From assembly GCA_002634385.1 (NCBI GenBank), contig NSJL01000011.1, forward strand, positions 62,001 to 126,000: DNA of 64,000 nt, in the 5' to 3' direction. Source of the DNA: Nitrospira sp. (GTDB lineage: Bacteria > Nitrospirota > Thermodesulfovibrionia > Thermodesulfovibrionales > Dissulfurispiraceae). This document shows, in pieces, positions 23,352 to 26,580 of this stretch; within the stretch, counting starts at the first letter, position 1, and every line of letters begins with the position of its first letter. The translations under genes and the position numbers were made by a program. The notes below the pieces were generated by a model. The model had not been told where the DNA came from. It did not search any database and worked only from the letters and a program-made list of their open reading frames with translations.

Positions 23352-23957
23352 TTACCGCAACGGAATGTCAACAGCGCCTTTCCTCAGGAGGGCGATCTTC
23401 TCCCCTGCAACATCGACAATAGTAGAAGGGATATTGCCCGGCGACTCCCCGCCATCGATGATGCAGTCGAGAGAATCACCGAAATAATCGAGGATCATTT
23501 CCAGACTGCGCGCAGGGGGGTGGGCGGAAATGTTGGCGCTCGTTGCCGTGATGGGAAAGTCAGCCTTGAGGGCAAGACGCAGTGCGAAGGACTCTCCCGG
23601 TATGCGTACGGCCACACGTCCTCCGGAGACGAGAGGAGCGGGAAGCACTGACCGGGCGGAAAAGAGAAGGGTAAGGGGGCCGGGCCAGAAGGTACGCATC
23701 AGTTCTTCCGCTTGAGCACTGACCGAATCCGTCAGAAGAGGCAGAAGCTCCCTCCTTCCGATAATCAGCGGCATGGCCTTCTCCGCCGGCCGCCTCTTCA
23801 CTTCGTAGATCCTCTCAATGGCGGACAGGATATCATACTTCGCACCGAGGCCGTAAAAGGTTTCGGTGGGATAGGCAATGATGCCGCCGCCCTGCAGGGT
23901 GGCTACCGCCTCCCGCAGCGCCGTCTCGAGGGTCTCCCGGGCCAGTGTTATGGTCAT
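23352..23957 (-). CDS. tsaC: threonylcarbamoyl-AMP synthase (TsaC/YrdC/Sua5)
   Basis: Makes threonylcarbamoyl-AMP from threonine, bicarbonate and ATP, the first step of the universal t6A37 tRNA modification. The 201-residue protein has the YrdC signature GIIAYPTETFYGLGAKYD (about 28-45), then KRRPAEKAMPLI, FWPGPLTLLF, VAVRIPG and TATSANIS near 140. This is the short form without the Sua5 C-terminal domain. ATG 23957 is preceded by AAAGG. Positions 23981-24016 just upstream carry a fragment resembling the SpoIIE gene. Confidence 0.93.
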   Translation of the reverse strand: MTITLARETLETALREAVATLQGGGIIAYPTETFYGLGAKYDILSAIERIYEVKRRPAEKAMPLIIGRRELLPLLTDSVSAQAEELMRTFWPGPLTLLFSARSVLPAPLVSGGRVAVRIPGESFALRLALKADFPITATSANISAHPPARSLEMILDYFGDSLDCIIDGGESPGNIPSTIVDVAGEKIALLRKGAVDIPLR

Positions 23958-24016: not shown

Positions 24017-24252
24017 GAGGTGCATCAAAAAGTGACATCAAAAAGTGGTGGTATTGAAAAAAAGGAGGCATATCCTTATAATAGAGTCGTTGTGGATGTA
24101 AAAAGAAACAGGGGACGTACCCGGCATGTTCCACCGGCAGTGATTCCACCGGCATATCCGACTCTTCCACTCCATCCTGCAGTTCGTTCTTTTTACCTTC
24201 CCTATTGTAAGAAATGAGCATTCGCAGCGCTCTTTGATAGCCAGAAAAAGCA

Positions 24253-24345
24253 GCTTTTCCGAAAGGGTAAACCCTGGGTAACCAGGGGGCACAAAGCTAC
24301 GGGTCCTCGCCATGAAGCGAAGGACAGCCGGGTTGCCGAAGAAGC
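24253..24345 (+). promoter_or_regulatory. cyclic-di-GMP-I (GEMM) riboswitch aptamer
   Basis: The plus strand matches the GEMM-I consensus in order: P1 5' strand GCTTTTCCG (24253-24261), AAGGGTAAACC (24263 on), a hairpin CCTGGGTAACCAGG, GCACAAAGCTACGGG, a second hairpin TCCTCGC..GCGAAGGA, then ACAGCCGGGTTGCCGA and the P1 3' strand CGAAGAAGC (24337-24345). The base equivalent to Vc2 G20 is G, which favours c-di-GMP over cGAMP. An intrinsic terminator follows 30 bases later, and the next gene is the caspase-like protease. Whether the ligand raises or lowers expression cannot be told by eye. Confidence 0.9.
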
Positions 24346-24375
24346 AGGAAGACTCTTCCGTCCAGGATGATGTTG

Positions 24376-24409
24376 AAAGCCTGTTTCCCCAAGGAAACAG
24401 GCTTTTTTT
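24376..24409 (+). terminator. riboswitch expression-platform terminator
   Basis: A strong hairpin with a 13-base stem, AAAGCCTGTTTCC (24376-24388) against GGAAACAGGCTTT (24393-24405), has a 4-base CCAA loop and a run of seven T. It sits between the GEMM aptamer and the caspase-like gene, about 97 bases ahead of its start, so it is placed to make transcription of that gene ligand-dependent. A small GGAAG-ACT-CTTCC hairpin lies between aptamer and terminator. Confidence 0.85.
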
Positions 24410-24505
24410 GTCATCAAAGGCAGTCGCGGTTTCCAGACGCGCATGCCCGAAACGGCAGCCCGCCGCAGCGGGAAGCTCAACGGGCGGAAGGGAGGATTAA
24501 AAACA

Positions 24506-25531
24506 GTGAAACGTTTTAAGGCGGCACACAGCAGTTTCGTTCACCGTTCGTCAAACGAGGGGATGCCGGCCGCTCCTTTCCGGAGCGTCCGCAGGGCTTT
24601 TCTTTTACTGGCACTCCTTATCCATTCGTTATTCCTTTCACCTTCGGGCGTCCTCGCCCAGCATCCTGCAATCAATGCAGCCGCTCCTGAGACAGTCGGT
24701 AAGGAGATCAACGCCATCGCCGGGCTTTCCGACGGGAAGGTCTCTTCCGGATCACGCCTTTTTATCCTTGCGGTGGGTATCAATGAATACAAGAACCCGA
24801 AAATGAGACTGCGGTTCGGAAGGTCCGATGCAGAAGCCTTCGTCCAGACAGTGGAGCAGCACGGGAAGAAGATTTTTCACCAGATCGAAAAACTGACGAT
24901 CTACGATTCGCACGCCGTGCGAAGCACCATCGAGGACGCCTTCGGCAGGATCAGCAGCGAGGTAAGGCCTGAGGATGTCTTTGTTTTTTACTATGCGGGA
25001 CACGGGGTAATGAGCAGGGGAGACGCCGCAAAGAAAGCGGAGTTCTATATGGCACTTTCCGATGTCACCCGTTTGAGCGGGGACCACGGAATGCTCGAGG
25101 AAAAAGGGTTGTCCGCACGGCTTCTCAGAGAACTGAGCTCGAAGGTAAAAGCCCGGAAGCAGCTTTTGGTGCTGGATGCCTGCCATTCCGGCGGGGCGCT
25201 GGACAACTTCTCCCTTGGAGCAAGCACGGAGGGGAAGGCGGTTCATCAAATGACAAAGGGTCTCGATATCACCGTCCTGGCGGCGGCCGGCGCTTCCCAA
25301 TCGGCAACGGAATTCCGGCAGCTCGGCCATGGCGTATTCACCTTTGCCCTGATGAAAGGGCTGGCGGGCGAGGCCGACAGCGGACTCTCTTCCGACGGCA
25401 CCATTACCGTAAAAGAGCTGGTAGCCTATTTAAATACGAAAGTTCCCGAGATTACCCGGCAGTATAAGGGGGCGGCACAGAATCCCAACAGCTTTGCGCG
25501 GGGAGAGGACTTCCCCCTGAGTGCCCGGTAG
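24506..25531 (+). CDS. secreted caspase-like (C14, metacaspase-type) cysteine protease
   Basis: A 341-residue exported protease. The GTG start at 24506 follows GGGAGG; an ATG at 24563 is also in frame. Arg-Arg at 29-30 is followed by a hydrophobic segment (31-50) and a likely signal cleavage after LAQ. The p20-like caspase domain runs from FILAVGINEYKNP (about 86-98) with the catalytic His in YYAGHG (H166) and Cys in LDACHSGG (C226), then VLAAAGASQSATEF and GHGVFTFALMKGL. The C-terminus contains a DGTITVKELVAYLN segment. No extra repeat domain is visible. It probably acts in the periplasm or outside. Its expression should respond to c-di-GMP through the upstream riboswitch. Confidence 0.88.
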   Translation: MKRFKAAHSSFVHRSSNEGMPAAPFRSVRRAFLLLALLIHSLFLSPSGVLAQHPAINAAAPETVGKEINAIAGLSDGKVSSGSRLFILAVGINEYKNPKMRLRFGRSDAEAFVQTVEQHGKKIFHQIEKLTIYDSHAVRSTIEDAFGRISSEVRPEDVFVFYYAGHGVMSRGDAAKKAEFYMALSDVTRLSGDHGMLEEKGLSARLLRELSSKVKARKQLLVLDACHSGGALDNFSLGASTEGKAVHQMTKGLDITVLAAAGASQSATEFRQLGHGVFTFALMKGLAGEADSGLSSDGTITVKELVAYLNTKVPEITRQYKGAAQNPNSFARGEDFPLSAR

Positions 25532-25601: not shown

Positions 25602-26477
25602 TTATTCGACCCTTTCAAAGGCCTCCCGGACCACTATTCCCCTTTCGTCTGCGTACCCTGAAGCCATGTATGCCGTTGTGTGCGCCAGAATGAATTGTCC
25701 CCCGGCGTTGACAGCGATGATTCCCGCTTCTCCTCCCCTTTCCCGTATCCTTCGCAGCGACAACTCTGCCGCGTGCGAGGGAGAGACCGTCTTCATATTC
25801 ATGCATATCTCTTTTCCAAGGGCAAGTCTCAGGATCGTCTCCCCCTTCCCCGTGCAGGAGACGGCACCCGCCGCATTATCCGCATAGATTCCCGCTCCTA
25901 TGACCGGGGAGTCGCCGACCCTCCCTGGAAGCATCGCCTCGACTCCTCCCGTGGACGCCCCCGCAGCCAGAGTACCCTCCCCATCGACGGCAACTGCCCC
26001 TACCGTTGAAAAGAACCGTTCATAGAGGGCTGCGGCGGTCCCCTCCCCTCTTGCCCGGGCAAGCTTCTGCAGGACACTCTGCCCCGGCTCAGGCAGGGGA
26101 GCCAGTCCGTTCGCTTCCGCGATCCTTTTTGCACCGGTATTCGTAAGCATCACATGGGGGAGGTCCATGACGAGCCGCGCAGCCCTGACCGGGTTCCGTA
26201 TCCCCTCGAGCCCGATCACCGAGCCCGCATTCAGATGCCGCCCTTCCATCAGGGATGCATCGAGCCTCCTGACGCCGTCCATTTGAAGGTTTCCCCCTGC
26301 ACCCGCATTGAAAAAACCCGAATCCTCAAGGAAGGAAATGGCAGCTACCACGGCATCAAGGGCAGTTCCCCCGCTTCGGAGCACCTCGTATCCGCTGGAA
26401 AGGCATGCTGAGAGGGTCTCCAACGCTTTCGCACCGGGCGCCCTGTCCCCCGCTCCTCCGTGAACAAGCAAAAGCAT
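25602..26477 (-). CDS. isoaspartyl peptidase / plant-type L-asparaginase (Ntn hydrolase)
   Basis: Hydrolyses isoaspartyl dipeptides and asparagine after self-cleavage. From ATG 26477 the product is 291 residues. It starts MLLLVHGGAG, has GFFNAGAGGNLQMDG, and the autocleavage site before the nucleophile Thr in FFSTVGAVAVDGEGTLAAGASTGG (split around 156-179), followed by GDSPVIGAGIYADN. The canonical GTVG is STVG here, still with the Thr. An in-frame ATG at 26501 is possible. It is convergent with the caspase-like gene and 103 bases downstream of a STAS gene. Confidence 0.88.
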   Translation of the reverse strand: MLLLVHGGAGDRAPGAKALETLSACLSSGYEVLRSGGTALDAVVAAISFLEDSGFFNAGAGGNLQMDGVRRLDASLMEGRHLNAGSVIGLEGIRNPVRAARLVMDLPHVMLTNTGAKRIAEANGLAPLPEPGQSVLQKLARARGEGTAAALYERFFSTVGAVAVDGEGTLAAGASTGGVEAMLPGRVGDSPVIGAGIYADNAAGAVSCTGKGETILRLALGKEICMNMKTVSPSHAAELSLRRIRERGGEAGIIAVNAGGQFILAHTTAYMASGYADERGIVVREAFERVE

Positions 26478-26580
26478 TCTCCCCTCCCCCTTCTCCGTCA
26501 CAACAGTTCCGGGATATCCGGACGTATGGTCCGCCCGCCGCCTTTGCCGGAGTATACGCCCGGCAAGGACCCGGCAAGCC

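Follow-up and report, generated by a model that had tools for sequence, protein, structure and literature searches.

The caspase-like gene described here lies in the window, the 64,000-nucleotide stretch of DNA that was analyzed, which is part of a 4.3-Mb draft genome (G000). It is the single gene of a plus-strand transcription unit that is placed between two minus-strand genes, one for a threonylcarbamoyl-AMP synthase and the other for an isoaspartyl-peptidase/asparaginase (Table 1). The unit begins with a promoter, followed by a spacer of ~170 bases, a c-di-GMP-I (GEMM-I) riboswitch aptamer, an intrinsic terminator, a ribosome-binding site and the GTG-started gene for the protease. The caspase gene stands alone, as no toxin, sensor or partner genes were found at the locus. 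Judged by its relatives, the genome comes from a lineage related to Nitrospirota; the closest named record is a 'Nitrospirales bacterium' MAG, whose protein is 79% identical. The promoter region contains a block, TTATAATA, that is invariant in all four orthologous leaders. A second promoter at the conserved TTTGAYAGC was considered and rejected, as it has no -10 element at the proper distance.

Table 1. Features of the caspase transcription unit and its flanking genes (positions are those of the window)
Feature	Position	Strand	Remarks
Threonylcarbamoyl-AMP synthase gene	23352-23957	minus	Flanks the caspase unit
Promoter TTGAAA-17-TATAAT	24054-24082	+	Upstream of the aptamer; 11/12 match to consensus
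Conserved GCTCTTTGATAGC element	24229-24241	+	13 bases, resembles rRNA boxA; just 5' of the aptamer
GEMM-I (c-di-GMP-I) riboswitch aptamer	24257-24341	+	Matches RF03167 and RF01051; pocket letters G-A-C
Putative antiterminator strand A (GAAGCAGG)	24341-24348	+	Borders the 3' closing strand of P1, with slight overlap
Intrinsic terminator	24375-24409	+	14-pair stem (24375-24406), then T-run; 5' arm (24380-24387) can also pair with strand A
Ribosome-binding site GGGAGG	24490-24495	+	Direct reading; kept in G033
Exported (probable) caspase-like (Peptidase_C14) protease gene	24506-25531	+	PF00656; 341 aa, GTG start, His166/Cys226
Probable signal peptide	24506-24658	+	Hydrophobic helix 27-43, by inspection; cleavage between VLA and Q after residue 51
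Isoaspartyl-peptidase/asparaginase gene	25602-26501	minus	Flanks the caspase unit on the other side

The initial annotation of this DNA had described a GEMM-I aptamer followed by a terminator, and both were recovered. A cmscan of the window matched RF03167 on the plus strand with 67 bits against a cut-off of 59 (E 1.2e-13), and RF01051 (c-di-GMP-I) matched at the same place with 69.5 bits against a cut-off of 35. In the whole genome seven c-di-GMP-I aptamers score above the cut-off, and the one described here, which is among them, is nearly invariant among the leaders of the caspase orthologues. The terminator, which is a strong one, is present in all of these leaders. The last letters of the aptamer together with a CAG that follows them make up a strand, strand A, that can base-pair with the terminator's 5' arm. 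The CAG is kept in the four caspase leaders and in three related leaders of an ABC exporter (see below), and the rest of the linker varies between species. When strand A and the terminator 5' arm were aligned over these seven leaders, 45 of the 49 cells paired, and this number was 17-34 when the two strands were slid against each other. The variable pair of strand A in the caspase leaders is G-U, A-U, G-U or G-C. When the RNA was cut before the 3' arm of the terminator, the predicted fold contained the alternative pairing in the window, G030, G027 and two of the ABC-exporter leaders, but it did not favor this pairing in G033 and the third ABC-exporter leader; these folding predictions take no account of the ligand, of tertiary contacts or of kinetics. 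The alternative pairing involves few bases and is weak in any single leader, with 5 to 92 of 500 shuffles as good, and the case for the antiterminator therefore rests on its conservation.

The layout of these strands also points to the direction of the switch, which the initial annotation had not addressed. In the Cd1 switch of Clostridioides difficile, a class I aptamer is combined with an antiterminator made from aptamer-closing and terminator strands, and the ligand promotes termination (PMC9262584). The window leader likewise has an intrinsic terminator and a competing antiterminator built with the strand that closes the aptamer, with a short overlap with P1, and the arms of its terminator have no overlap with the aptamer. 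Since the layout is that of Cd1, the caspase leader is predicted to be an OFF switch, so that the protease would be made when c-di-GMP is low. Cd1 differs in that it controls flagellar genes and is found in another phylum, and the sequence of its expression platform is not the same. An ON switch could also be suggested, in which termination is blocked at high c-di-GMP; the caspase would then be at work in sessile cells, where it might, for instance, help the matrix to mature or lyse cells within biofilms. Highly similar GEMM aptamers serve as ON or OFF switches (PMC9262584), and the MFE fold of the full window leader has strand A paired and the terminator open. However, the pilM ON switch has a different layout in which aptamer and terminator are mutually exclusive (PMC9262584), whereas here the aptamer and both terminator arms occupy separate stretches of the RNA, so that the liganded aptamer and the terminator can coexist. 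In addition, the terminator has a single competitor, and this is formed with the strand next to P1. An ON switch thus seems rather unlikely, and the OFF direction is used in what follows.

The product of the gene had been annotated as an exported C14 protease with His166 and Cys226 intact, and the present analysis agrees, with export as a probable feature. The protein matches PF00656 (Peptidase_C14) with 53.3 bits against a cut-off of 21.4, and both members of the dyad (numbered with the GTG at 24506 as the first codon) are the same in every orthologue. The GTG start with its GGGAGG is kept in G033, where no upstream ATG exists. An ATG at 24443 was therefore rejected as the start, since it is absent in G033 and the ribosome-binding site belongs to the GTG. 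The N-terminal hydrophobic helix (residues 27-43) is present in the structure model and ends in the VLA-Q cleavage site, and the orthologues from G030 and G027 have clear signal sequences by inspection. These features suggest that the caspase is probably exported, and its orthologues look exported too. The orthologue from G030 (L107:6578-8020) contains WD40 repeats between the signal sequence and the caspase domain. The structure model is confident only in its core, residues ~84-227, and with this model the best Foldseek matches were the Geobacter caspase-like protein GSU0716 (E 1e-9), followed by plant and yeast metacaspases and MALT1 (about 1e-7). A sequence-profile search of solved structures with the caspase gave no match, but the fold search did. 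The protein shares the p20 caspase fold, the His-Cys dyad and a DACHSG-type motif with bacterial caspase homologues (orthocaspases and bacterial metacaspases), and it differs from them in being probably exported and under a c-di-GMP-type riboswitch.

What would an exported caspase do when c-di-GMP falls? PPEP-1 (ZmpI) of C. difficile is an earlier example of a secreted protease controlled by a class I c-di-GMP riboswitch. The zmpI mRNA carries such a riboswitch, through which c-di-GMP regulates negatively, and its product releases adhesins (PMC6366702). PPEP-1 is different in that it is a zinc metalloprotease without a caspase fold and its substrates are known. A second comparison is the LapD-LapG system of Pseudomonas fluorescens. 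LapG is an exported cysteine protease that is held in check by high c-di-GMP through LapD, and at low c-di-GMP it releases adhesins (PMC3032545). In this system control is exerted by a protein receptor and not by RNA, and LapG belongs to Peptidase_C93. A LapG (Peptidase_C93) gene was sought in the four caspase-bearing genomes and was not found. Because PPEP-1 and LapG, both exported proteases restrained by c-di-GMP, release adhesins, the release of surface proteins at low c-di-GMP is our best guess for the role of the caspase, and we consider it likelier than self-lysis. The initial annotation had tied the switch to proteolysis or self-lysis at the cell surface. Control of an exported caspase by a c-di-GMP-type riboswitch finds good support in the strong score, the conservation in four species of three genera and the pocket letters of the aptamer, but nothing was found that favors self-lysis over surface-protein processing. 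The caspase could be a self-killing effector that is released at low c-di-GMP and brings about regulated lysis, as bacterial caspase homologues have been proposed in reviews to take part in cell death and the fold matches metacaspases and MALT1. The protein looks exported, however, its locus has no toxin, sensor or partner genes, and the best-documented exported proteases under c-di-GMP control, PPEP-1 and LapG, release adhesins. A role in self-killing is thus unlikely.

Another point to consider is the ligand. The best-scoring Rfam label of the aptamer is RF03167, the c-di-GMP-I-GGC variant, and it might be supposed from this label that the ligand has changed, or that the aptamer responds to a different cyclic dinucleotide, for example cGAMP. 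The covariance alignment gives the pocket letters as G10, A37 and C75 in RF03167 model numbering. At position 37, which was taken as the middle G of GGC by reading of the RF03167 consensus, that consensus has G, whereas A stands there in the window and in every orthologue, which is the letter that ordinary c-di-GMP-I RNAs have; the aptamer does not have the letter that defines the GGC variant, and the altered ligand suggested by the label was rejected for this reason. Sensors of cGAMP have A at position 10, whereas the aptamer has G, and its RF01051 score is likewise far over the cut-off. The pair next to the pocket is C-G in the consensus and U-A here, with both sides changed, as is expected of a working fold. 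We take G-A-C to be the ordinary c-di-GMP-I set, with the Rfam numbering mapped onto the published Vc2 structure. Because the pocket reads G-A-C, the expected ligand is c-di-GMP and a different one is quite improbable.

The linkage between the switch and the caspase gene is conserved. Among 176 genomes of the order there are three further clear orthologues of the caspase, which are 80, 63 and 62% identical over the matched part and 80, 55 and 57% identical over the full alignment. The next caspases in the order-wide search are at most 37% identical and are mostly long multidomain frames. No further close orthologue was found in 230 genomes of the class or in 396 genomes sampled from the phylum. 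The initial annotation had named loss of the leader in all relatives and a promoter that bypasses the terminator before 24506 as findings that would speak against it, and both were looked for. In each of the three further orthologues the aptamer immediately precedes the gene, in the same orientation (G033:C70:22471, G030:C11:107385 and G027:C31:44993). No promoter-like site was found between the terminator and the caspase gene, and the sole plus-strand site is the one 5' of the aptamer. With the window's own genome included, aptamer, terminator and gene order are common to all four close orthologues, which come from three genera, and the order tldD/pmbA, lpxC, synthase, aptamer, caspase is the same in all four species. 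These orthologues are not independent, because all of them belong to one family.

The aptamer was absent from all 36 more distant caspase loci that were scanned (16 + 20), and it was absent within 5 kb of Bacteroidota homologues that are 42-44% identical. No other aptamer adjoining a caspase was present among the matches listed in the order-wide searches. In other family members, 20 loci with the synthase gene were scanned and none had an aptamer. Because the aptamer is absent both at distant caspases and at synthase loci without the caspase, gain and loss seem to have affected switch and caspase together. Judged from these comparisons, the link between the aptamer and the caspase is not accidental. 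A nearly identical aptamer is present on contig C34 of this genome, so leaders of this type can be copied, and the caspase leader might be a relic or passenger that does not regulate the gene. This is highly improbable, as aptamer and terminator are kept in four species though spacer and linker have diverged, and no other promoter precedes the caspase gene.

The spacer contains one further conserved element. Although the spacer has otherwise diverged, the four caspase leaders all retain the boxA-like GCTCTTTGATAGC, and the ABC-exporter leader of G000 retains part of it. The rrn leaders of family members have TTCTTTGAAA or GCTCTTTGAAAA, although this comparison is thin because 16S genes with leaders were found in just two family members. 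The motif TCTTTGACAG occurs 14 times in the genome and its reversed control 9 times, so the motif alone is not significant. It could be that the element recruits Nus factors to the transcription complex ahead of the riboswitch terminator.

Variations in the genes that accompany c-di-GMP-I aptamers were observed among these genomes. A second riboswitch of this class in the window's genome (L109:5263-5347, on C34) precedes a gene for an MsbA-like ABC exporter. The caspase and exporter aptamers of this genome differ at 3 of 86 positions, and 12 of 86 differ when the caspase leaders are compared between the two species of the genus. Recent copying, or concerted evolution by gene conversion, is the likely reason. 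The exporter, with orthologues that are 73% identical, has the same type of leader in G000, G030 (L147) and G027 (L192), and exporter and leader were found in exactly the three more complete caspase-bearing genomes. Two 161-bp aptamer-terminator units of the GEMM-I type, 97% identical to each other (L111:4677-4756, minus strand, and L112:4276-4355, plus strand), have promoter-like sequence upstream and no gene directly downstream, and one of them faces the 3' end of an apparent EAL gene. These units are candidate stand-alone small RNAs that bind c-di-GMP. A tandem pair of c-di-GMP-I aptamers, the first with its own terminator-like hairpin, was observed at L148 (G023 C95). Aptamers of the same class at L146 (G028 C57) and L152 (G022 C59) lie 5' of genes for short HU/IHF-like DNA-binding proteins.

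The reading that we prefer, with a probability of roughly 0.7, is that the leader is an OFF-type transcriptional c-di-GMP-I riboswitch that controls one gene, for an exported caspase-fold cysteine protease that probably cuts surface or periplasmic proteins as cells leave the sessile state. Transcription would start near 24090. At low c-di-GMP, strand A would pair with the 5' arm of the terminator, the terminator would not form and the protease would be made. At high c-di-GMP, the ligand would lock the aptamer and its closing helix and strand A would be held, which leaves the terminator free to form and to end transcription.

The RNA itself is a class I riboswitch of the ordinary kind, and its expression platform is of a known type; it is the class of its target that is new. 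No relevant paper on a c-di-GMP riboswitch together with a caspase or metacaspase was found in the literature searched, which covers a minority of subscription papers. A possible, if tentative, extension is that the caspase-fold protease replaces LapG or PPEP-1 in this bacterial family. An RNA switch and not a protein receptor would then free synthesis of the protease when c-di-GMP falls, and the protease would cut surface adhesins or, less likely, lyse the cell. If true, this would be the first direct control of a caspase homologue by a second-messenger RNA. Bacterial caspase homologues are common and few of the signals that activate them are known; the conserved RNA switch would name the upstream signal and predict its direction. 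The logic seen with LapG and PPEP-1, in which low c-di-GMP releases an exported protease, would also be extended to a third, unrelated protease fold.
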